NCBI GenBank assembly: GCA_019911785.1
Contig: JAIOJM010000306.1
Span: 1-17,437 of the forward strand
Length of the DNA: 17,437 nucleotides
Source of the DNA: Sulfuricella sp.
GTDB lineage: Bacteria; Pseudomonadota; Gammaproteobacteria; Burkholderiales; Sulfuricellaceae
Direction: 5' to 3'
Shown: positions 1,878 to 17,353 of the stretch, piece by piece
Position numbering within the stretch: the first letter of the stretch is position 1
Layout of the letters: the number at the start of each line of letters is the position of its first letter
Made by a program: the position numbers and the translations under genes
The notes under the pieces: model-generated
Databases searched by the model: none
What the model saw: only the letters and a program-made list of their open reading frames with translations
Told to the model about the DNA's origin: nothing

Positions 1878-2488
1878 TTCGGCCTGGGAATCACTCCGCG
1901 ACCCTGCAGGTAGCCGATGACCTGATCCACACATTGATCCAGCGGCATGCTGCCCGTATCGATGGCCAGTTCCGGATTTTCCGGTTCTTCATAGGGGGAG
2001 GAGATGCCGGTGAAATCGCGGATCTCGCCGGCACGGGCCCGGCGGTACATCCCTTTCACGTCCCTCTGCTCACAGACCTCAATCGGACAGCGGCAGTAGA
2101 CTTCGATGAAATCGCCGGGAACCGTCAGATTGCGAACTTTGAGTCGATCCGCTCGGAAGGGCGAGATGAAGGCGGTCAGCGCAACCACGCCCGCTTCGAC
2201 AAACAGTTTGGCCATCTCGCCGATACGGCGGATATTTTCCCTGCGATCCTCCTCGGAAAAATCCAGATCCCCACACAGACCGTGACGAACATTATCGCCG
2301 TCGAAAACAAAGGTTCGGCAACTCATCTGGTGCAGCCTCTCTTCAACCGCGTGTGCCAATGTCGACTTGCCGGCACCGGAAAGCCCAGTAAACCAGATGA
2401 TCACACTTTTGTGGCCGTTGAGCTGTTCTCTGCGAGCGCGCGTTACCGTGGCATGGTGCCAGACGGTATCGGAGCTTTTATTATTCAT
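1874..2488 (-). CDS. cysC: Adenylylsulfate (APS) kinase
   Basis: A 204-residue cytoplasmic kinase that phosphorylates APS to PAPS with ATP. Visible features are the P-loop GLSGAGKST at residues 35-43, the APS-binding [10 protein letters not shown] at 62-71, and FISPFRADR around 107-115, whose serine matches the conserved phosphoserine position of the family. The length is normal for a stand-alone CysC. The ATG at 2488 is chosen over longer frames because it overlaps the end of the permease gene by 8 nt and the N-terminus then matches the family. The stop overlaps the next gene by 4 nt. No cysD, cysN or cysH is nearby, so the PAPS may serve sulfate transfer to an exported glycan. That role is inferred from the adjacent exporter. 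Confidence 0.92.
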
Positions 2489-3704
2489 AGCGCAACGCCT
2501 CCACCGGCTTGAGCATCGCTGCCCTGCGCGCCGGGTAATAGCCGAAAAATACGCCGATCGCGGCAGAAAAGGCAAACGACAGCAGGATCGACCACACTGT
2601 CACCACCACGACCATTTCTGCCATCGAACTGACCAGCCAGGCACCACCAACGCCGAAGAGCACGCCAACCAGCCCGCCGACGATGCAGATAATCAGCGCT
2701 TCGAGCAGAAATTGCAGCAGGATGTCGCGGCGGCGCGCGCCGATCGCCATGCGGATGCCGATTTCCCGGGTGCGCTCGGTGACCGATACCAGCATGATGT
2801 TCATGATGCCGATCCCGCCCACCAGCAGGGAAATGGAGGCGATGGCGCCGAGCATGAAGGACATGGCCTGCGCCGATCCGGCGGCGGATTGCGCCACCGA
2901 GGTCAGGTTGCGGATTGTGAAGTCGTTTTCCGCATCTTCGGCCAGGCGATGGCGCTGGCGCAGCAATTGGGTCATTTCACGCTCCGCTTCACCCATCGTT
3001 TCGGCCGATCGCGCCTGAACCATGATATAGCGCACCGTGCCCGGGAACTGGTTGCCGAAAAGCTTGCGCTGGGCGGTGGTGACCGGCACCACGGCGGTGT
3101 CGTCCTGATCCCGTCCGTCCAGGCTCTGCCCCTTTGCCGAGAGCAGGCCAACGACCAGGAACGGCATGTTCTTGATGCGGATGATCTTGCCGGTGGGGTC
3201 TTCCTCGCCGAACAGGTTTTTTGCCACCGTCTGGCCGAGCAGGACCACCCGGGTCGCGCCGCGCACATCGCTTTCCTCGAAGGGATGCCCGGAGTCCAGG
3301 CTCCAGTTGCGCACTGTAAAGTAATCCGGCGTGGAGCCGGTGACGATGGTGCTCCAGTTGTTTGAACCATAGGCCAGTTGGGCGTTGCCCGGATACGAGG
3401 GGGAAACCGCCTTGACCGACGGGACTTGAGCGAGCGCCTGCGCGTCGGAGACGGTCAGGGTAGGCACGCTGCCCGCGCCGAAGCGCAGCCCGCCTGAAGT
3501 GCTGGCGCCGGACAGGACGATGAACAGGTGGCTGCCCATCGAGGCGATGGACTGGTTGACGGTGTACTGCGCGCCTTGGCCGACGGCGAGCATCAGCACC
3601 ACCGCCGCCACACCGATCACCATGCCGAGCATGGTCAGCGCGGTGCGCATGCCGTTCATCGCCATGGCGCGCCAGGCTTCGGCGAATATCGCAAGAATTT
3701 TCAT
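2481..3704 (-). CDS. macB: MacB-type ABC efflux permease subunit (FtsX/MacB fold)
   Basis: A 407-residue inner-membrane protein. It has a first transmembrane segment near residues 20-42, a large periplasmic MacB_PCD domain, and a C-terminal FtsX block of three membrane helices containing the conserved cytoplasmic loop [18 protein letters not shown]. It ends with the usual [17 protein letters not shown] tail. With the separately encoded ATPase and the MacA-like adaptor it would form a tripartite pump handing substrate to an outer-membrane channel, which is not encoded here. The start at MKILAIF is chosen because the extra nine residues of the longer frame are read from cassette repeat DNA. The SD is weak. 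A 470-bp cassette separates this gene from its ATPase partner. Confidence 0.9.
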
Positions 3705-3714
3705 GACAAAAAGA

Positions 3715-3757
3715 TTAACCACGAATAACACGAATGTTCACGAATCTGCACGAATAC
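3715..3757. repeat. Left inverted repeat of the GxxExxY cassette
   Basis: Four CACGAAT cores start at 3720, 3729, 3739 and 3749. It lies between the GxxExxY stop and the macB permease start, and contributes the dubious extra N-terminal codons of the longer permease frame. Confidence 0.85.
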
Positions 3758-3771
3758 ATCAATACAGGAAA

Positions 3772-4155
3772 TCATAGAACGACCCGCTGGTATTCCAAAC
3801 GAGGGTTGGCAAAGTTAAAAACCATAGCCAAATTCAGGCCGGTTGCCTTGAGATAATTAAGTGCCTGGGCCTTATGGGAATCAGATATTTCACTTACCGT
3901 TTTGAGTTCCAGAATAATCTTGTTCTCGACCAGAATATCAGCGTAATAAGTGCCGATGGATTCGCCGTCAAACAATACAGTAATCGGAGCCCGCTGCACC
4001 GCATCGATTCCCGCTTTGTGAAGCAGCACCATCAATGCATTCTCATACACTTTTTCCAAAAACCCATTTCCCAGCCTGGTATGAACCTGCATGGCCAAAC
4101 CCACGATTTGGTAAGCTAATTCTTGATGAAGTATTTTCGTCGGATTCGTGTTCAT
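3772..4155 (-). CDS. GxxExxY protein (PD-(D/E)XK nuclease-fold family)
   Basis: A 127-residue protein with the family-defining G31-F-L-E34-K-V-Y37 motif, preceded by the helix AYQIVGLAMQVHTRLG. It also has Y-Y-A-D73-I-L-V followed by I-L-E83-L-K85. D73 and E83-x-K85, with E34, match a PD-(D/E)XK nuclease core, as in the Pfam family called PDDEXK_3. Biochemical function is not established as far as I know. It is full length. Its ATG and first codons (MNTNP) come from the flanking repeat, and the ATG overlaps the stop of the macB ATPase frame, so it is translated within the efflux operon. Its role in efflux is doubtful; it looks like a passenger of the inverted-repeat cassette. Confidence 0.85.
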   Translation of the reverse strand: MNTNPTKILHQELAYQIVGLAMQVHTRLGNGFLEKVYENALMVLLHKAGIDAVQRAPITVLFDGESIGTYYADILVENKIILELKTVSEISDSHKAQALNYLKATGLNLAMVFNFANPRLEYQRVVL

Positions 4156-4184
4156 TCGTGTTCATTCGTGTCATTCGTGGTGAA
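4142..4184. repeat. Right inverted repeat of the GxxExxY cassette
   Basis: Four ATTCGTG cores (the reverse complement of CACGAAT) start at 4144, 4154, 4164 and 4173. The repeat encodes the last ten residues of the macB ATPase frame ([10 protein letters not shown]), its TGA stop, and the ATG and first codons of the GxxExxY gene. Confidence 0.85.
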
Positions 4185-4880
4185 TGAACTGACTTTTCCA
4201 TCATGCGCCACCCGCCCGTCCACGAAGCGCACCATCCGGTGAGCATAGCGGGCGATATCCAGCTCGTGGGTCACCAGGATGACGGTCATGCCCTGTTCGC
4301 GGTTGAGGCGGGTGAATATTTCCATGATCTCCTGGCCGGTGTGGGTGTCGAGGTTGCCGGTGGGCTCGTCCGCCAGGATCAGCGGCGGGCGGTTGATCAG
4401 CGCGCGGGCGATGGCGACGCGCTGCTGCTGGCCGCCGGAGAGCTGGTTGGGCAGCGATAGCGCGAACTTTTCCAGGCCGGTCTGGCGCAGCATTTCCAGG
4501 GCGCGTTCACGGCGTTCAGCCTGTCCCAGGCCGGCGTAAAGCAGCGGCAGCGCGACATTGTCGACAGCCGTGACGCGCTTGAGCAAATTGAAGCCCTGGA
4601 ACACGAAGCCGATCAGGCCGTTGCGCAGATTAGCGAGTTCGTCCGGATTCAGCTGCGCGACATCCCGGCCATTCAGGAAATAATGCCCGCTGGTTGGCGT
4701 ATCGAGACAGCCGAGGATGTTCATGAAAGTGGACTTGCCCGAACCGGAGGGCCCCATGATGGCGACGAATTCGCCGGGGGCGATGCTCAGGTTGACGTCA
4801 TGCAGCACCGGGGCGGTGCGGCCGCCGGCGATTTCATACTGCTTGTGCAGGCCTTCGACGCGGATCAGGGAATCGGCCAT
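4152..4880 (-). CDS. MacB/LolD-type ABC transporter ATPase
   Basis: A 242-residue cytoplasmic ATPase of the MacB/LolD class. It shows Walker [10 protein letters not shown] (43-51), a Q-loop at Q95 (FVFQGFNLL), signature LSGGQ (147-151), Walker B LILADEP (167-173) and switch H205 (VTHELDIA). It energises the separate MacB-like permease for mechanotransmission-type export. The start ATG overlaps the adaptor stop by 1 nt (TAATG). Odd: residues 233-242 are read from the inverted repeat of the inserted cassette, so the native C-terminus and stop have been replaced. The catalytic core ends well before this, at the usual DGRVAHDG region, so the enzyme is probably still active. Confidence 0.93.
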
Positions 4881-6100: not shown

Positions 6101-7816
6101 TCAAGCGATGCCGGCATTGCCCTCCACCCCGATCAGCCTGGGCAGATTGAGCTTGCGCGGCGTGATCACCTTCTTGTCGCGCAAGTAGCTCGCCACCACA
6201 TCCCATACCGGCTCGCCGCTGGCGCCCTCCGCCACTGGCGCCCAGCCTGCCACCTTGTATTTCTTGTTGGGATCGAGCGGCTTGCCCTTCAGAACCATGT
6301 TGTTGATGCGCTTGCCGAAGCCCTGGCGCAAATCGCAGGTATAGCTGATGCCGCCGACGCGCACCATGTCGCCGCCCTGCTGCTTGTAGGGATCGGCATT
6401 GAACAGGTTGTCACAGACGTCTTCCATAACGGACTTGATCGTTTCACCGGTCATTTCGGTCAGCGTGGTATAGGGATAGGTGATGGCGGTCTGGTCCATC
6501 AGATTTTCCATGGTGATGGTGTCGCCCGGCAACAGCGAAGTGCCCCAGCGGAAGCCGGGAGAGAAGGCCGCGTCCGCTCCTTTCACTTCCATCAGGGCAT
6601 CCAGAATCAATTGATCGAAGGTGCCGTTGAAGTTGCCGCGGCGGTACAGCGTCCCCTCGGTGACGGCCAGCTTTTCCGCCAGCTTGGCTTCGTAGGGCGC
6701 GCGAACCTTCTTGATCAGGGCTGCCATGTTTGCATCCGGCTTAATCAGGTTAGCGAACACCGGCAGCAGCTTGTATTTGAAGCCGGCCACCTTGCCGTTC
6801 CTGACGTCGAAATCCAGCACGCCAAGAAACTTGCCATTGGAACCGGCGTTGGTCACCAGGGTTTGTCCCCTGGCATTCTTGACGATGGACGGAGCAGGCA
6901 TGCCGTCGTGGGTATGGCCGCCGAGGATGGCATCGATACCGGTGACACGGCTGGCCATTTTGAGGTCCACATCCATGCCGTTGTGGGACAGCACCACCAC
7001 GACCTGGGCGCCCTTGGCGCGAGCCTCATCCACCATCTTCTGCATATTGTCGTCCTGGATGCCGAAGCTCCAGTCCGGGGTCATGTAACGCGGGTTGGCG
7101 ATCGGCGTGTAGGGGAAGGCCTGGCCGATGATCGCCACCGGGATGCCGTTCATGCGCTTGATGACATAAGGCTGGAACACCTGGTCACCGAAATCGTTGG
7201 TCTTGATGTTCTGCGCCAGAAAATCCACCTTGCCCTTGAAATCGTTGTCCACGATCTGCTTGACGCGCTCCGCGCCCAGAGTGAATTCCCAATGGCCGGT
7301 CATGATGTCCACACCGAGCAGTTTGCAGGCATCCACCATGTCCTGGCCATTGGTCCACAGCGCGGTGGCGGAACCCTGCCAGGTATCGCCGCCATCCAGC
7401 AGCAAGGCCCCCGGACGGTTGGCGCGAACCTTCTTCACCAGCCCGGCGAGGTGGGCGAAGCCGCCGACCTTGCCGTAGGTGCGGGCGGCCTTTTCGAAAT
7501 CGAGGGAAGTGAAAGCATGCGCCTCGACCGTGCCGGGCCGGATGCCGAATGCCTTGAGCAGTTTCTCGCCCACCAGGTGCGGCGGCTTGTTGAGGCTGGT
7601 GCCCAGGCCGATATTCACGTTGGGTTCACGGAAATAAATCGGCATCAACTGAGCATGGCAATCGGTGATGTGCAGCAATGAGACATTGCCGTATGCGGGC
7701 AAATCGTAGAAGCTTCCTGCGTGACTGGCAGACAGGGCCTGCCGGCTGTTCAGCGCGAAGCCGGATGCGGCGGCCACTGCCAGGATCTGCAGAAATTCGC
7801 GGCGGTTCATGGACAT
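6101..7816 (-). CDS. soxB: SoxB sulfate thiohydrolase
   Basis: A 571-residue periplasmic hydrolase that releases sulfate from the S-sulfonate carried on the SoxY cysteine, using a dinuclear manganese site. Metal and catalytic motifs are H-I-T-D52-C-H54, GGD144TW, the SoxB-specific GHWE (174-177, in place of the GNHE of 5'-nucleotidases), SH278NG and GGH301TH303. The N-terminus has a twin-arginine signal (NRREFLQ, residues 4-10, then AVAAASGFA), consistent with folded export. Length is typical. The start ATG at 7816 has GGAG 6 nt upstream. It is the last sox gene, separated from soxA by a 103-bp spacer with a stable inverted repeat. Confidence 0.97.
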   Translation of the reverse strand: MSMNRREFLQILAVAAASGFALNSRQALSASHAGSFYDLPAYGNVSLLHITDCHAQLMPIYFREPNVNIGLGTSLNKPPHLVGEKLLKAFGIRPGTVEAHAFTSLDFEKAARTYGKVGGFAHLAGLVKKVRANRPGALLLDGGDTWQGSATALWTNGQDMVDACKLLGVDIMTGHWEFTLGAERVKQIVDNDFKGKVDFLAQNIKTNDFGDQVFQPYVIKRMNGIPVAIIGQAFPYTPIANPRYMTPDWSFGIQDDNMQKMVDEARAKGAQVVVVLSHNGMDVDLKMASRVTGIDAILGGHTHDGMPAPSIVKNARGQTLVTNAGSNGKFLGVLDFDVRNGKVAGFKYKLLPVFANLIKPDANMAALIKKVRAPYEAKLAEKLAVTEGTLYRRGNFNGTFDQLILDALMEVKGADAAFSPGFRWGTSLLPGDTITMENLMDQTAITYPYTTLTEMTGETIKSVMEDVCDNLFNADPYKQQGGDMVRVGGISYTCDLRQGFGKRINNMVLKGKPLDPNKKYKVAGWAPVAEGASGEPVWDVVASYLRDKKVITPRKLNLPRLIGVEGNAGIA

Positions 7817-7850
7817 GGAAACTCCAAATCAGGAAAGAGGCACGAGGCGA

Positions 7851-7899
7851 GGGGCAGGAGGAAAACGCGAAGCGACAATCGCCTCCAGCCTCCAGCCCC
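7851..7899. repeat. Inverted repeat in the soxA-soxB spacer
   Basis: GGGGCAGGAGG at 7851-7861 pairs with CCTCCAGCCCC at 7889-7899 (10 of 11 positions) around a 27-nt loop. A second CCTCCAG copy lies at the loop edge. There is no U-tract after it on the sox strand, so a transcript-processing or stability hairpin is more likely than a terminator. Confidence 0.5.
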
Positions 7900-7919
7900 G
7901 CGCCCCTGGCCCGAGTGGC

Positions 7920-8747
7920 TTACTTGCGGAACACCGGAGTCTGCATCGGCAGGCCGTTGCTCATGTAGGTGAGGAAATATTCGAGGTTGTTGTACTCTTC
8001 GCTGTTGAATTCCAGCGGCGCGGAACGCACATTTTTCTGGCACTGGCGAAAACGCCCTTGCAGCGTAACCAGGTCCGTTCCGGCGCGAAACTCCGGCCAG
8101 TGCGCAGCCTGCCCGATCATCGGGGAGAGCTGTTCGCTACGGACGAAGTTGCCGACATTGTCGATATGACAGGTCGCACAGGAGAAATTCAGCTGGCCGC
8201 GGCGGCTATAGTAATGGGTCTTGCCTTTCTCGTACGCAGCCAGGGCAGCGGGGCCCTCCACCTTGACCTGCACTTTCATCCCGTCCGATAAACTCTTTAC
8301 ATATACCGACAACAACCCGAGATCATTGCTGCCATATTTCAGCTCCGCCTCGCCATTCGCCTTCAGGCAGGCATTGAGCGCGTTCTCGAAGGTGATGACC
8401 TTGCCGATGGCGTTATCAAATTGGGGATAATTACCCGCCGCATTCTTTCCGCCATCGGGAAAGCACGAGGATAACTTCTTGCCGTTCTTGAACGGCTTTT
8501 CCCACATTTTCCTGCCCTCATCGACATCGTTGACGAAGGGTGGGAAGATCATGATGCTGTCGTATTGGTCTTTGGCGTCCGGATTCAAGGCCAGGGCGCC
8601 CAGCACATAATCCTCAAACTTCACGCCAGGAAGTCGCTGTTTGTAATGCTCGGTCAAGGCCTTGCGATCCTCGGCAGGCCCGGCGATCGCAGCAAGGCTG
8701 GCACCCAGGAACAGGCAGGCCAGAATAGCGGTGAGTCTCCGTCTCAT
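7920..8747 (-). CDS. soxA: SoxA c-type cytochrome, monoheme type
   Basis: A 275-residue secreted cytochrome that pairs with SoxX to oxidatively couple thiosulfate to the SoxY cysteine. The Sec signal peptide covers about residues 1-22 (RRRLTAILACLFLGASLAAIA). There is one heme motif, C190-A-T-C193-H194. C236 (RFRQC) is the expected cysteine ligand, found as a persulfide in known SoxA. C95 and C127 sit where diheme SoxA has its first heme and probably form a disulfide, so this is the single-heme form. The third of three tandem ATGs (8747) is chosen because AGGA lies 6 nt before it. soxZ is 76 bp upstream. Confidence 0.96.
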   Translation of the reverse strand: MRRRLTAILACLFLGASLAAIAGPAEDRKALTEHYKQRLPGVKFEDYVLGALALNPDAKDQYDSIMIFPPFVNDVDEGRKMWEKPFKNGKKLSSCFPDGGKNAAGNYPQFDNAIGKVITFENALNACLKANGEAELKYGSNDLGLLSVYVKSLSDGMKVQVKVEGPAALAAYEKGKTHYYSRRGQLNFSCATCHIDNVGNFVRSEQLSPMIGQAAHWPEFRAGTDLVTLQGRFRQCQKNVRSAPLEFNSEEYNNLEYFLTYMSNGLPMQTPVFRK

Positions 8748-8823
8748 CATCATTCCTTTCGCAGAAATCATTATAGTTTTTTGTGTTGCATTGGCCGGAC
8801 AAGAAGCATCCGGCCGGGCTTGA

Positions 8824-9138
8824 TCAGGCAATGGCCGCCTCGCCGCTAATTTTTCCGCCTTTGTTGTCCACCGCATTAATCACGATTTTGTCGCCGGCCT
8901 TGGCGCCCTTGATCTTGAAACCCAGAAAGGGATTCTTGGAAATTGCCGCACCCCACTGCGCTTCCAGCACGGTCTTGTCATTCAGGGTGGCCACGACGTG
9001 ATTGATGAAGAAGGCGGGAATCAATTGCCCGGTTTTGGCGTCCTTGCGCAAACCGGTCTCCATGATGTGATTCATCAGTGCTTTTACATCGGCGACATCG
9101 CCTTGCAGCGTCGCGCGAATTTTCATTCCTTCAGCCAT
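8824..9138 (-). CDS. soxZ: SoxZ sulfur carrier partner
   Basis: A 104-residue protein of immunoglobulin-like fold that dimerises with SoxY to present its cysteine arm to SoxXA and SoxB. The sequence has the family N-terminus (KIRATLQGDVADVKALMNHIMETGLRKD), the central PAFFINHV and the closing GDKIVINAVDNKGG. No signal peptide is present, as expected: SoxZ is exported by riding with Tat-borne SoxY. The ATG is preceded by AAGGAT at good spacing. It lies 49 bp downstream of soxY in the same operon. Confidence 0.96.
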   Translation of the reverse strand: MAEGMKIRATLQGDVADVKALMNHIMETGLRKDAKTGQLIPAFFINHVVATLNDKTVLEAQWGAAISKNPFLGFKIKGAKAGDKIVINAVDNKGGKISGEAAIA

Positions 9139-9187
9139 GTTCGTATCCTTGTCAAATAAAGTGAATATTCAAATCCATTCATGCCGA

Positions 9188-9658
9188 TCAACCACCGCAG
9201 CCGCCGATCGTCACCTTGACTTCCTTGGTGGCGGTGTAAGCCTTGCCGCCGGCTTTCACTGCCACCCTGACGTGGGAAGTGTTGGCCATCTTGATGCGTG
9301 TAGAAACGTATCCTTCCGCACCATTGGAAAACTCGAAATCAGCGATCAAGGGATTCTGGTTCTTGTCTACAAAAATCATGATGGAAGTGGTGCCGGGAAT
9401 TTTGCTGGTCACTTCCACCGGAACCACCGCACCATTCTCGGCAATATCCGGCGCCTTGATCAGGATGTCCTTGCTCTCGGTGGCACCAGTAACATTCATG
9501 CCCTTCATTGCATCCGCCGTGGTCGTGGCATCAAATGCCACCTTGTTCCATTCCGCTGCCAACACCTGACCAGGCCTGAGCAGGCCCGCGGCGATGGCGA
9601 CCGCCACCGTCCCGGCAGCACCGGTACTCTTCAAAAAAGTTCTACGCAAGTGATTCAT
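9188..9658 (-). CDS. soxY: SoxY thiosulfate-carrier protein
   Basis: A 156-residue periplasmic carrier on which sulfur intermediates are bound during thiosulfate oxidation. The C-terminus is GGCGG, with C154 as the swinging-arm attachment cysteine. The N-terminus is a Tat signal (LRRTFLK at residues 4-10, then a hydrophobic alanine-rich stretch to about residue 34). Length is normal. It starts 24 bp after soxX and is followed by soxZ, the obligate partner. A GGAAAG and a further GGAG lie before the ATG. Confidence 0.97.
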   Translation of the reverse strand: MNHLRRTFLKSTGAAGTVAVAIAAGLLRPGQVLAAEWNKVAFDATTTADAMKGMNVTGATESKDILIKAPDIAENGAVVPVEVTSKIPGTTSIMIFVDKNQNPLIADFEFSNGAEGYVSTRIKMANTSHVRVAVKAGGKAYTATKEVKVTIGGCGG

Positions 9659-9682
9659 CTTTCCAATCTCCGAATAAAAAAG

Positions 9683-10042
9683 TTAAAGGCTAAGTATATA
9701 TTCAACGACCTGATCAATTTCCTGCTCAGTCAGAATCTGGTGCTTTCCGAAAGGCGGCATCGAAGTTTTTGGATTGGCTACCGTGGAATCCCAAACCTGG
9801 GCACGCAGCTTGTTCCGGTCGGGAAAGCGCTCCTTCATCATGATGAAGGGTGGCGCTATATTACCAGGCGAATCGGCCTTCGGATCATTGGGGATCGCAT
9901 GGCAGGCGAGGCAATTGCCCTTCGCCTTGTTGAACAAGACCGTCCGTCCAGCGGGTTCCTTGGCAACTTCGGCTGCCATGGACAGGTTCGCGATACCCAA
10001 GCCGGCGATCAGCGCAAACAAAAGTGTCGATATTTTCCGCAT
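9683..10042 (-). CDS. soxX: SoxX c-type cytochrome
   Basis: A 119-residue monoheme cytochrome, the small subunit of SoxXA, which passes electrons from the SoxA reaction to the respiratory chain. It has a Sec signal peptide over about residues 1-24 (KISTLLFALIAGLGIANLSMA), the heme motif C44-L-A-C47-H48 and M95 in SMPPFG as the distal ligand. The start at 10042 is chosen because a strong GGAGGAG stands directly upstream; a longer frame to 10084 has a non-signal-like N-terminus. It is the first gene of the sox operon, and the 223 bp upstream form its control region. Confidence 0.95.
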   Translation of the reverse strand: MRKISTLLFALIAGLGIANLSMAAEVAKEPAGRTVLFNKAKGNCLACHAIPNDPKADSPGNIAPPFIMMKERFPDRNKLRAQVWDSTVANPKTSMPPFGKHQILTEQEIDQVVEYILSL

Positions 10043-10088
10043 CACTCCTCCTTCTCCGTTTTGTCGAGCATTCTCCGAAGGCATCCAC

Positions 10089-13036: not shown

Positions 13037-13170
13037 TCACAGTTCAAGCGGGCTCGGGTATTGTGCCAACTGGACCTCGGCACCGGTGTGCATGTCTATG
13101 CCGTAAATGCCCTGCCCGTTGACGCAAGCAGAGGGGCGATATGTTCGGCGCGGGTTTCGGCTTCGTTCAT
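13037..13170 (-). pseudogene. hsdR: hsdR remnant (type I restriction subunit), internally deleted and frameshifted
   Basis: The ATG at 13170 overlaps the Fic stop as ATGA and opens [17 protein letters not shown], the style of N-terminus of HsdR proteins; this frame stops at 13096. In the +1-shifted frame the DNA then reads NGQGIYGIDMHTGAE and QYPSP, which matches the conserved HsdR segment normally more than 100 residues further in. The expected D-E-L-W becomes L-E-L-stop (TGG to TGA). So a deletion joined codon 17 or so to this segment out of frame. No helicase domain remains. The functional protein would be about 800 residues or more. Confidence 0.6.
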
Positions 13171-14291
13171 TGCGCAGCGTTCCCATAAGGTGCAAATTGA
13201 TTGCTATCTCGGGTAAGCAACTGCATCAGCTTCGGGTGGATGAACAGTTTTTCCTTTGTTACGGCCACTTCGGCCAGCACGCCGATTTCCACCAACTGCT
13301 TCAGGTACTGCGATGCCGTTTGCCGTTTCGCGATGCCCGCTTCGGTCAGACTGCCGATCCGGCAATACGGCAGCTCGAATATCAGGCTCACCAGCTCATG
13401 GCTGTAAACCTTGGGCAATCTGCCGCGAACATATTCCGTCGTGTGCTCCGACAATGCCCGGATCGCCGCGATTTTCGCCGTTGTCCAGATTGCCGTTTCT
13501 TCCACGCCCTTGATGATGTAAAGCAGCCACGGCTCCCAGTCTTGCTCGCGGGTCACCTGCAACAACAAGCGGTAGTAATCCGCCTTGTTCTGGATGATGT
13601 AACGGCTCAGATACAAGATCGGCAGGGTCAGCAAATTTTCCTGAATCAGAAACAGGCTGTTCAACACCCGCCCCGTTCGGCCATTACCATCCGTGAATGG
13701 GTGTATCGCCTCGAACTGATAATGACCCATCGCCATGCGGATCAGCGGGTCGAGCGACGTTTCGTTGTGCAAAAATCGCTCCCAGTTCGCCAGTAAATCC
13801 CGCAACAATGGCTCGCCTTCGGGTGGGGTGTAGATGATCTCGCCCGTCGCATCATTGCTCAGCGTGGTGCCCGGCGTGCGGCGCACCGTCATCTCAACGC
13901 CCTTGATGCGGGTGCATATCTGCTCTGCGGTGCGAGTGGTGAGTGGGTATTCCTGGAGTGCCTTGAACCCCTCGAACAGCGCATGGCTATAGCGCAAAGC
14001 TTCCTTGGTGGCAGGGTCTGCCTGCTCCTCACTACGCAGATACCGGAACAACTGGTCCGTGGTCGTAACGATATTCTCGATTTCCGAACTAGCGCGCGCT
14101 TCGAGCAACGGCAGCGAATTGATGAGCACGGCCTGATTGGGGATCAGCTCCGCCGCCTGCTTGAGTTCGGCCAATGCCGCACGCGCGGTAATGCACTGCT
14201 TCAACACCGCGCGAGTTTCAATCTCCACCTTGGGCGGCAAGGCAGGCAGCGCATTGTAGGGCCGCTCCGGTCGCCAGTTTTTGAGGCTCAT
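13167..14291 (-). CDS. Fic-domain AMPylase with N-terminal inhibitory motif and C-terminal winged helix
   Basis: A 374-residue Fic protein. The catalytic motif [12 protein letters not shown] is at residues 197-208; its histidine activates the target hydroxyl for transfer of AMP from ATP. An inhibitory helix motif, S68-S-E-I-E72-N73, fits the [S/T]xxxE[G/N] rule, so it is a class II, self-inhibited Fic. The C-terminus contains a helix-turn-helix ([25 protein letters not shown]), as in the common Fic plus winged-helix architecture. The ATG at 14291 is chosen ([20 protein letters not shown]); one at 14306 adds five residues. The stop overlaps an hsdR stub. Fic genes of this type often sit in type I restriction loci. 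Its promoter lies under three inverted repeats. Confidence 0.92.
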
Positions 14292-14310
14292 GTTTGCATT
14301 TCGCATTTTT

Positions 14311-14944: not shown

Positions 14945-15014
14945 CCCACCCAGAATCAAGGTCTCGAACTTTCCTGAAATCGGCTACCCTCCCGGCATTT
15001 TGCCGGGAGAAGCC

Positions 15015-16556
15015 ATGAGTAATCGGAGGTTCGAAATGTATCAATATCGCCAAGCCTTGGTGCGCATGCGCCAGGGTGATCCTGACCGGGTGATCGCCCG
15101 GTCTGGCCTTATGGGGCGCAAGAAGCTCGCCAGCATCCGGAAACAGGCCATCAGCCATAACTGGCTTTCCCCAAGCCAGCCCTTACCCGACGACAGCGCA
15201 CTTGCCGAAGTCTTCCAGCCACCTTTAAGCGTCCCGGTGGCCAGCACCTCATCGCTGGCGCAATTTCGCGAGCAAGTGACCGCCTGGCACGATGCCGGCA
15301 TCCAAGGCACCACCATCCACAGCGCCTTGGCACGCGAGCACGGCTTTACCGGCAGCTATTCGGCGGTGCGGCGACTCCTGCAACAACTCAATGCCGCCAA
15401 GCCGCCCGAGGTGTCGATGCGCCTCACCTTTCAACCCGGCGAAGCCGTCCAGGTCGATTTCGGATCAAGCCCGCTCCTCACCGATGTCCACACCGGCGAG
15501 ATCTTCAAGACCTGGTTCTTCGTCATGACCCTGTGCTGGTCCCGACACCAGTACGTCGAGATGATCCCGGACCAGACCGTCGCAACCTGGCTGGGCTGTC
15601 ATCGTCGCGCCTTCGAATGGTTCGGCGGCGTACCGGGACGGGTCATCATCGACAACGCCAAGTGCGCCATCACCAAGGCGTGCATTCACGATCCCGAGGT
15701 GCAGCGCTCCTATGCCGAGTTCGCCGAAGGCTACGGATTCCGCATCGACCCCTGTCCGCCGCGCGACCCGCAGAAGAAAGGCATCGTCGAAGCCGGCGTG
15801 AAGTATGTGAAGCGTTCCTTCCTGCCGCTACGCACCTTCCGCAGTCTCGCCGACGCCAACCGCCAGGCGCAGGAATGGGTGATTAAGGAAGCCGGCAACC
15901 GCTGTCACGGCACCACCCGCGAGCAGCCGCTGGCCCGCTTCGCCGAGGTGGAGCGGGCGCTACTGGGCAAGCTGCCCGACGTGCCGCCGGTGCTGGCGGT
16001 CTGGGCCAAGGTGAAGGTGCATCGCGACGCCCATGTGCAATACATTCACTGCCTGTATTCGGTGCCGTTCAGGCTGGTCAGCCTGTCTCTTTGGCTGAAG
16101 GCCACCGAGACGACGCTCCAGCTCTACCGGGAGCATGAACTGGTCGCCACCCATGTGCGCCAGACCAGACCGGGAAGCCGTTCCACGGTAACTGACCACA
16201 TGCCGCCCGAGGCGCAGGCTTGGCAGACGCAGGATACGCAGTGGTGCCTCCAGGAGGCCGAACGCATCGGGCCGAGCTGTCATGCCTTGATCCATGCCCT
16301 GTTCAGCGACAAGGTGCTGGAGAACCTGCGGGCCGTGCAAGCGGTGCTGCGACTGGCGAAGAAGTTTGGTTCGGCACGGCTGAACGCCGCCTGTGCGCGT
16401 GCGATGGCCTTCGATCAGCCACGGCTGCGGACGGTCAAGGCCATCCTCGCCAAGGGGCTGGACCAGCAGGCAGAACTACAGACGTTCGACGCGCTGGCAG
16501 CGACTTACACCCAGGGCGGCCGCTTCTGCCGCGACACTTCATCCTTGTTGAATTGA
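15015..16556 (+). CDS. istA: IS21-family transposase IstA
   Basis: A 513-residue DDE transposase that cuts and joins the element ends. An N-terminal HTH-like region (about 12-50) and a second DNA-binding segment (about 90-125) precede the integrase core. The catalytic triad is D148 (VQVDFG), D213 (IIDNAK) and E259 (KGIVEAGVKY). A C-terminal beta-barrel region follows (YIHCLYSVPFRLV). The ATG at 15015 has GGGAG 5 nt upstream and is preferred over a TTG at 15000. The full-length reading frame shows no frameshift. istB begins 8 nt after its stop. Confidence 0.95.
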   Translation: MSNRRFEMYQYRQALVRMRQGDPDRVIARSGLMGRKKLASIRKQAISHNWLSPSQPLPDDSALAEVFQPPLSVPVASTSSLAQFREQVTAWHDAGIQGTTIHSALAREHGFTGSYSAVRRLLQQLNAAKPPEVSMRLTFQPGEAVQVDFGSSPLLTDVHTGEIFKTWFFVMTLCWSRHQYVEMIPDQTVATWLGCHRRAFEWFGGVPGRVIIDNAKCAITKACIHDPEVQRSYAEFAEGYGFRIDPCPPRDPQKKGIVEAGVKYVKRSFLPLRTFRSLADANRQAQEWVIKEAGNRCHGTTREQPLARFAEVERALLGKLPDVPPVLAVWAKVKVHRDAHVQYIHCLYSVPFRLVSLSLWLKATETTLQLYREHELVATHVRQTRPGSRSTVTDHMPPEAQAWQTQDTQWCLQEAERIGPSCHALIHALFSDKVLENLRAVQAVLRLAKKFGSARLNAACARAMAFDQPRLRTVKAILAKGLDQQAELQTFDALAATYTQGGRFCRDTSSLLN

Positions 16557-16564
16557 GGTACACC

Positions 16565-17353
16565 ATGAATCCCATTCCTGAACTCTCCCCGCTGCTCAAG
16601 CAACTGCGCTTGTCCGGCATTCTCGATTCACTGGAGGCGCGTAACCGTCAGGCGGTCGACAGCCACCTGGCCTACACGGAATTCCTGTCACTGTTGATCC
16701 AGGATGAGGTGGCGCGCCGGGAGCAGACCAAGCTGCAATCCCGGCTGCGCCGCGCCAGCTTCCGCTCGCAGAAGACGCTGGAGGGTTTTGACTTCGACCG
16801 CTTGCCGCAGCTCAACCGGAGTCTGGTGCATGACTTGGCGACGGGGCGCTACATCGAGGAGAAGGTGGCGGTGCTGATCGCTGGCCCGTGCGGCACCGGC
16901 AAGAGCCATCTGGCACAGGCGCTGGGCCATGGCGCGGTGCGCCAGGGCTATGACGTGCTGTTCACCACACAAACCCAATTGCTCGGCAGCCTGCACGGCG
17001 CCCGAGCCACCGGTAGCTATGAGCGGCGCTTCCAGCAGTTGGCGCGGGTGGATTTGCTGATTATCGACGACTTCGGACTGAAGCCGTTGCGTCCGCCCCA
17101 GGATGAGGATTTCCACGATCTGATTGCGGAGCGCTATGAGCGGACGGCGACAATCCTGACCAGCAACCTGGATTTCGGGGAGTGGGGTGATGCCTTCCCC
17201 GCAAACAAGATGCTCGGTGCGGCTACGCTGGACAGGCTCCGTCACGCGGCTTATCGGGTTGTTCTGGACGGCGACAGTTTCCGTGCGCCAAGGCCTATGC
17301 CTGACACCCCAAAACCTTCACTTGCGAAAGGAGGAAAAAACACTCATTCTTGA
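16565..17353 (+). CDS. istB: IS21-family helper ATPase IstB
   Basis: A 262-residue AAA+ ATPase of the DnaC/IstB type that assembles on target DNA and stimulates IstA. Walker A is GPCGTGKSH (about 107-115) and Walker B LLIIDDFG (164-171). TILTSNLDFGEW further on is the sensor-1 region, and LDRLRHAAYRVVLDGDSFR the C-terminal conserved block. The ATG at 16565 is chosen because GAGG stands 6 nt upstream and the N-terminus (MNPIPELSPLLKQLRLSG) matches the family. A longer open frame reaching into istA is not the real gene. It is intact. Confidence 0.95.
   Translation: MNPIPELSPLLKQLRLSGILDSLEARNRQAVDSHLAYTEFLSLLIQDEVARREQTKLQSRLRRASFRSQKTLEGFDFDRLPQLNRSLVHDLATGRYIEEKVAVLIAGPCGTGKSHLAQALGHGAVRQGYDVLFTTQTQLLGSLHGARATGSYERRFQQLARVDLLIIDDFGLKPLRPPQDEDFHDLIAERYERTATILTSNLDFGEWGDAFPANKMLGAATLDRLRHAAYRVVLDGDSFRAPRPMPDTPKPSLAKGGKNTHS

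Follow-up and report, generated by a model that had tools for sequence, protein, structure and literature searches.

In the REPIN-RAYT system, a single gene is accompanied by short repeats that are found elsewhere as hairpin-forming inverted doublets; some genomes hold many gene-less copies, and the repeat groups are matched to particular proteins (passages of PMC3116915). In Geobacter metallireducens, paired tandem repeats on opposite strands were described in 2009, in classes of three to five tandem units of 7-8 bp at a variable distance, and were presumed to be binding sites for global regulators (passages of PMC2700814).

The GxxExxY family (TIGR04256; PF13366, PDDEXK_3) is mentioned only in passing in the open-access literature, where no link between it and such arrays was found. 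TIGR04256 is not mentioned there and, in the passages concerned, PF13366 appears only in the context of Arctic microalgae; the titles and abstract openings of papers on PDDEXK proteins and palindromic repeats hold nothing on such a system. Matches to the word CACGAAT in open-access papers were primer noise, and tandem repeats reported from Bacillus have units of 52 and 20-21 nt in the passages of PMC8161180. The family description itself does not refer to arrays.

Here, a stretch of 17,437 nucleotides from Sulfuricella sp. (contig JAIOJM010000306.1, the window) was analysed, in which a GxxExxY gene lies between two mirrored arrays of the heptamer CACGAAT. We put the probability at roughly 0.55 that this feature belongs to a widespread family of cassettes in which the GxxExxY protein reads its own arrays, in a system resembling REPIN-RAYT.

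Structure of the cassette and its protein

The cassette and its neighbours are as follows (window coordinates).

2481-3704, minus strand: MacB-like permease (open reading frame and family search)
3714-4185, minus strand: complete cassette, one gene flanked by two inverted heptamer arrays, located between the genes for the ATPase and the permease of a MacB-like exporter
3720-3755, plus strand: permease-side array, four CACGAAT heptamers at 3720, 3729, 3739 and 3749 (sequence)
3772-4155, minus strand: GxxExxY protein, 127 amino acids, PD-(D/E)XK fold (family profiles and predicted structure)
4144-4179, minus strand: ATPase-side array, four CACGAAT heptamers at 4173-4179, 4164-4170, 4154-4160 and 4144-4150 (sequence)
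4152-4880, minus strand: MacB-like ABC ATPase (open reading frame and family search)

The cassette is 472 bases long and has a GC content of 43.6%, compared with 58.2% for the window. Counted from the outside in, the steps between heptamers are 9, 10 and 10 bp on both sides, in mirror image, and the 43-base ends are identical at 35 of 43 positions (42 nt at 83% in another alignment); both the spacing and the match had been noted in a preliminary description of this DNA and were reproduced on recounting, with four heptamers per side. A fifth, degenerate unit of the ATPase-side array lies near 4136-4142. The cassette holds six tandem heptamer pairs, with 0 in 200 shuffles. Its arm score is 28, and none of 619 controls of the same spacing taken from the window exceeds 13.5. 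The ATPase-side array extends into coding sequence: the ATPase stop overlaps the GxxExxY start codon (ATGA), both inside the array, and the last ten residues of the ATPase are encoded by array sequence. By comparison with a cassette-free relative (locus L384, below), the permease likely starts at the ATG at 3704-3702 rather than at a GTG at 3731 within the array.

The open reading frame list and the family search gave GxxExxY as the sole gene of the cassette (TIGR04256, E 8e-39; PF13366, E 5e-37), as had been described, and no transposase gene inside it; of the features of an insertion sequence or transposon, the terminal inverted repeats are present and the transposase gene is absent. The earlier statement that no transposase is present holds for the cassette, and IS21-like reading frames occur only elsewhere in the window, at 15000-17353, where two look like an istA/istB pair. 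The window also encodes a sox sulphur-oxidation cluster (6101-10084; SoxB and SoxA from the family search, with neighbouring reading frames that look like SoxX, SoxY and SoxZ), a Fic-family protein of the SoFic type (13167-14306, family search) and two small adjacent reading frames (65-840) that look like a nucleotidyltransferase/HEPN-type pair and had no family match at E 0.001.

The window protein scores 132.5 bits against TIGR04256 (cut-off 35) and 127.2 against PF13366 (cut-off 22). The latter is its only Pfam match, and it has no match to the REP-associated tyrosine transposase. It carries the D...E-x-K active site and the fold of the PD-(D/E)XK superfamily, with D73, E83, K85, Q97 and Y101 all present; the D73-E83-K85 set is complete in 229 of 235 relatives, and Q97 and Y101 are likewise conserved. 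The closest structures to the predicted model (pLDDT 80.5) are Cas4-like and other PD-(D/E)XK nucleases, with middling scores. Such matches show the fold and not the function, and the lack of a family among them is not evidence of its absence. Helix 1 is predicted at residues 9-28, with residues 11, 14 and 15 near its start and one turn apart, and residues 69 and 71 lie close to the catalytic D73. The family is large (at least 7999 matches among 8000 candidates in one search), with no match in phage records. It is also multicopy in some genomes, as the preliminary description had supposed, with up to 12 matches per genome, and 20, mostly fragments, in genome G009.

Matched arms and covariation with the protein

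The main sample of GxxExxY genes was drawn from the order of genome G001 (which we take to be Burkholderiales), the phyla of G010 (Planctomycetota), G006 (Bacteroidota) and G004 (Chloroflexota), and other genomes. The 164 matches less 33 partial, 2 long C-terminal, 7 edge and 2 duplicate cases gave 120 genes: 95 unselected, 23 from genomes picked for an array, the window gene and one found through the ATPase search. Inverted arms scoring at least 16 flank 95 of the 120 genes, compared with 19 of 360 mispaired flanks and 13 of 688 other reading frames at the same loci. They are present at 73 of the 95 unselected genes, the remaining 22 being without arms at this score, and at 20 of the 23 genes from array-picked genomes; flank matches of at least 16 in direct orientation were seen at 35 of the 120. 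In a second sample, which covered G009 and G011 and their phyla (63 matches less 20 partial and 5 edge cases), 24 of 38 genes have such arms (mispaired flanks, 16 of 190). A third, from array-bearing genomes (108 matches less 4 partial and 2 edge cases, at 107 loci, from part of the matches), gave 82 of 102, with 24 of 245 flanks mispaired within the same genome.

The repeated unit is CRCRRAK at steps of 8-11 bp, a form picked after the first sample of 120 and left unchanged for the second and third. Most arrays consist of three or four heptamers about one helical turn apart, and the heptamers that flank the gene point inward, with 239 such copies upstream and 261 downstream and only 70 and 72 on the opposite strands. 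Where both arms have at least two copies, the heptamer class agrees between them in 45 of 51 cases (permuted mean 5.8, maximum 14 in 2000), and in 9 of 11 held-out cases (permuted mean 2.6). Fourteen classes were distinguished among 129 classed cassettes, including CACGAAT, CACAGAG, CGCAGAG, CACGAAG and CGCAAAG. The preliminary description had proposed to look for CACGAAT arrays beside other GxxExxY genes. Inverted arrays do accompany most of the genes in each of the three samples; the focus on CACGAAT, one class of the fourteen, proved too narrow.

Among three annotated examples, a Bacteroides finegoldii plasmid has arms of the CACAGAG type (score 24) between radA and the gene that follows it, Sphingomonas parapaucimobilis has arms of the CGCGAAG type (score 19) between fabD and fabG, with the right unit inside the end of the gene, and the Prevotella nigrescens gene scores 12.5 and lacks clear heptamers. 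No close pair of filled and empty sites was found among the plasmid relatives.

Inverted tandem arms were also observed beside genes of the four-helix-bundle family TIGR02436, the protein of 23S rRNA intervening sequences. In Chloroflexota (L414-L440), 16 of 26 such genes have arms of at least 16, compared with 6 of 260 mispaired flanks (27 of 30 loci used, one lost at an edge), mostly with 7-bp units such as TCAGTTA or CATAGAA. TIGR02436 (E <= 0.001) is present in 17 of 20 GxxExxY-bearing Chloroflexota genomes and in 31 of 81 overall.

The class of heptamer follows the protein. Among the 64 cassettes classed first, 30 have the same whole class as the cassette of the nearest protein (permuted 6.2; shuffled within host group, mean 8.1 and maximum 18) and 62 have the same base 7. 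In a first held-out set of 19, the nearest protein gave base 7 correctly in 18 cases (p about 0.02 by permutation) and base 5 in 15 (p about 0.04); it did not predict bases 2 and 4. Over all 129 classed proteins, base 7 is shared with the nearest protein in 127 (permuted 66.7), base 4 in 113, base 5 in 107 and base 2 in 91; when only neighbours below 65% identity are used, bases 7, 4, 5 and 2 agree in 122, 106, 98 and 86 (permuted means about 64 to 68).

Individual residues covary with individual bases. At residue 14, T goes with G at base 5 (43:0) and A or V with A (23:0); at residue 11, N goes with A at base 4 (41:2) and K, Q or R with G (33:2); and G at residue 121 (68:0) or residue 69 (57:0) goes with G at base 7. 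When the proteins were divided 64/65 into training and test sets, base 4 was right from residue 11 in 53 of 65 (majority guess 29), base 5 from residue 14 or 15 in 53 (majority guess 29) and base 7 from residue 119 or 100 in 56 (majority guess 36), a division that is not fully blind because its columns had first been picked on the whole set. The leading columns of all were 11 for base 4, 15 then 14 for base 5, and 119 and 100 for base 7. When disjoint close pairs are compared, the best column is residue 14 for base 5 (29 of 47) and residue 11 for base 4 (20 of 35), and columns 22 and 119 tie for base 7. A second split, with 69 unselected cassettes for training and 48 from array genomes for testing, gave base 5 right in 41 of 48 (majority 30), base 7 in 38 (majority 26), base 4 in 31 (equal to the majority guess of 31) and all three in 20; the base 4 of the window protein itself was mispredicted. 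Well-supported tree branches supplied only 2 to 5 independent pairs, too few for power. We consider the residue links good for bases 5 and 7, and likely for base 4. The covariation strongly suggests that the protein binds the heptamers.

Gene-less arrays, insertion sites and copies

The three-CACGAAT pattern was found in at least 116 stretches of genome contigs and in 102 stretches of viral contigs. A GxxExxY gene is present at 8 of the 116 cellular loci listed and at 0 of the 102 viral loci, and the idea that the gene stands beside most CACGAAT arrays was rejected on these counts. At the 116 cellular loci, the 8 gene-bearing ones included, 73 of 135 arrays have an inward-facing partner within 200 bp, compared with 13 of 135 for the outward control. 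G006 alone has 58 arrays, and none of the backwards control pattern. The viral triples (L001-L102) are paired less often (26 of 127 within 200 bases) and may be something else.

Genomes chosen only for a CACGAAT array at a gene-less locus carry a GxxExxY gene scoring above the cut-off elsewhere in 45 of 50 cases, compared with 136 of 470 background genomes (Fisher odds ratio 22, p 2e-17). The 50 are the first of 99 listed (108 gene-less loci less 9 genome repeats); the background shares G006, G010, G011 and G292 with them, and the genome at the centre of each background sample is counted in it. The highest rate in any single background group is 39 of 80, in Bacteroidota, and within that sample 4 of 5 array genomes have the gene, with no clear link. 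An early count of 12 of 12, superseded by this comparison, was set aside and is not evidence, because seven of the twelve genomes had been picked for a gene beside an array.

The genes beside gene-less arrays have no common family: among 145 reading frames (15 of 160 were omitted for length or total size), each of the 25 commonest Pfam families occurs at most three times, and no transposase family is among these 25. This bears on a different explanation, in which the protein acts as a regulator and, by binding the arrays, sets the expression of its own gene and of the neighbours of gene-less arrays; the arrays would then be the sites of a regulon and not mobile ends. A spacing of one helical turn suits a repressor, covariation shows reading only and not movement, and the Geobacter metallireducens repeats were called global regulator binding sites (in the passages of PMC2700814). 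The mixture of neighbouring families speaks against such a regulon, as do the mirror-image arrays, which lie downstream of the gene as much as upstream, the nuclease residues conserved in 229 of 235 proteins and a copy pair in G009 that ends at the arrays (below); we consider this explanation unlikely.

The preliminary description had also suggested a cassette moved in trans. The co-occurrence in genomes favours this, as does an enrichment of the same class: 14 of 48 classed cassettes in array genomes are of the CACGAAT class, compared with 4 of 69 in unselected genomes (p 0.0012), with 54 of 102 array-genome cassettes unclassable. The residue-code version of the comparison was null, with predicted CACGAAT readers making up 15 of 102 proteins in array genomes and 19 of 133 in the others.

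The same MacB-like junction was compared at thirty loci with ATPase relatives, one of which (L398) has a stretch that missed the junction. In a close relative, genome G026 (L384, ATPase 93% identical), the ATPase stop directly overlaps the permease ATG and there is no cassette, and the search of that genome gave no GxxExxY match; this is an empty site at a macAB-type operon of the kind that the preliminary description had proposed to look for. L385 (86% ATPase identity) has the same cassette as the window. Different CACGAAT cassettes occupy the junction in L388 and L400, the one in L397 appears to be broken, and L407 has an apparent remnant. The junction is thus empty, filled or differently filled among relatives, which indicates that insertion or loss at this tight operon junction occurred more than once. 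In L387 (genome G057) the junction is occupied by another type of palindromic insert, a few hundred bases long and with AGGAGCCTGTCGGACTT ends, so the junction accepts several kinds of insert.

A gap between two co-directional genes of Flavobacterium, judged by eye at 29 of 30 loci, has a similar range of states. Eight loci have 0-28 bases and no cassette, seven have a CACGGAT/CACGAAT cassette, five have a different, CACAGAG-type cassette, two have a hairpin of 143-146 bases and seven more distant species have cassettes of their own. L534 and L528 have different cassettes in flanks that are 97 and 93% identical. The two hairpin loci (L537 and L546, CTCCTGCAAGGTTTT...) have apparent leftovers of cassette ends. 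A gene-less palindrome near the gap is present in some species and absent in others. At this gap and at the MacB-like site the filled and empty junctions have diverged, with no target duplication readable.

The Flavobacterium gene-less palindromes appear to be bordered by T-runs and A-runs on opposite sides, in the manner of two-way terminators. Together with the inverted tandem arms of TIGR02436, this would suit a model in which the palindromes are RNA hairpins (terminators, processing sites or elements akin to 23S rRNA intervening sequences) on which the protein acts. A terminator requires pairing but no fixed heptamer that recurs every 8-11 bp and follows the nuclease beside it, and a strong terminator between the ATPase and permease genes of the window operon would be harmful; a role in RNA seems very improbable.

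Copies within genomes are few. Of 236 pairs of GxxExxY regions from the same genome (66 genomes), 4 are similar (at least 72% over at least 300 bases), which indicates that recent copying is rare. In the G009 pair the similar stretch is 428 bases long (87.6%) and runs from GAACCACGAAT to ATTCGTGGTTC, ending at the arrays, with no convincing target duplication; in the G010 pair it is 557 bases long (91.2%) and extends some tens of bases past the arrays. From these alignments, copying of cassettes seems to happen, but rarely, a pattern more like that of RAYT genes than of active insertion sequences. As to the self-spreading element that had been offered as one possibility, few same-genome pairs are similar, no target duplication was established and no movement was observed.

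G009 also has fifteen closely similar short elements (L249-L263) with CACAAAA-type arms and the last ~43 GxxExxY codons, nested in a longer inverted element that begins near TTTTGCAA; L251 is without the left arm. The full GxxExxY gene is present at L268. One copy of the G009 gene (L245) is at the centre of a 12-base perfect palindrome (AAGATGAACGGC / GCCGTTCATCTT), as if the palindrome had been the target, and its sister copy (L237) is not.

The scarcity of recent copies, the nesting of the multicopy G009 derivatives and the different cassettes at one site in close Flavobacterium species would all be accounted for if homologous recombination or an unrelated transposase moved the cassette and the palindromes, the arrays being only hairpins or recombination tracts. 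Across phyla, however, heptamers still match the protein when protein identity is down to 50-65%, which would not be expected of passive cargo, and the 25 commonest families beside gene-less arrays include no transposase. Transport as a passenger is rather improbable.

Proposed mechanism and comparison with known systems

In the preferred reading, that of a protein reading its own arrays, we infer that GxxExxY binds its heptamers directly. The middle bases would be contacted by the start of helix 1 (residues 14, 15 and perhaps 11), and the last base by residues 69, 71, 100, 119 and 121, which lie near the active site and the C-terminus. A row of protein subunits may occupy the heptamers along one face of the DNA, and the putative nuclease would act where two such rows face each other, probably at a hairpin or cruciform. 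Its activity would help to copy or move the paired arrays into tight intergenic gaps, and the gene-less palindromes of the same heptamers would be non-autonomous relatives that use the same machinery as the cassette.

A broader proposal is held tentatively, at somewhat less than even odds: GxxExxY proteins may be sequence-specific PD-(D/E)XK enzymes that recognise the arrays flanking their own genes by a decodable residue-base code and drive an unrecognised class of dispersed palindromic DNA in many phyla, a nuclease-based counterpart of REPIN-RAYT, with the four-helix-bundle arms as a second, parallel branch. The link to cognate arrays gives a large and barely described family a testable role and may explain scattered repeats that have been labelled as regulator sites. 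The family also provides naturally occurring compact proteins in which changes at a few residues seem to shift the preference for DNA and, if movement is true, it would represent a new chemistry for the spread of short palindromic repeats.

MITEs and insertion sequences share with the cassettes the terminal inverted repeats and the short gene-less derivatives, but the GxxExxY cassette is without a transposase, its heptamers are conserved while the spacers diverge, and no target duplication was established. The 23S rRNA intervening sequences with an S23 four-helix-bundle gene likewise have one small gene per element (passages of PMC4990558). Their units and protein differ, and the window cassette is not within a 23S rRNA gene but in a protein-coding operon, between the ATPase and permease genes. 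Class 2 of the Geobacter metallireducens repeats (TCTCCGTS[Y]) resembles the CACGGAGA class of GxxExxY cassettes; the passages of PMC2700814 read these repeats as regulator sites and make no link to GxxExxY.

The likeness to REPIN-RAYT, as far as the passages on that system describe it, is that the GxxExxY gene is flanked by repeats that elsewhere form inverted doublets, with many gene-less copies in some genomes. On whether each class is specific to its own protein, as in REPIN-RAYT, the evidence is divided: the agreement between arms, the class enrichment in array genomes and the covariation speak for it, and the residue-code comparison of genomes was null. No intermediate of movement was seen. 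The differences are in the protein, a PD-(D/E)XK enzyme unrelated to the REP-associated tyrosine transposase, and in the ends, which are arrays of heptamers at 8-11 bp steps with a visible residue-base code.
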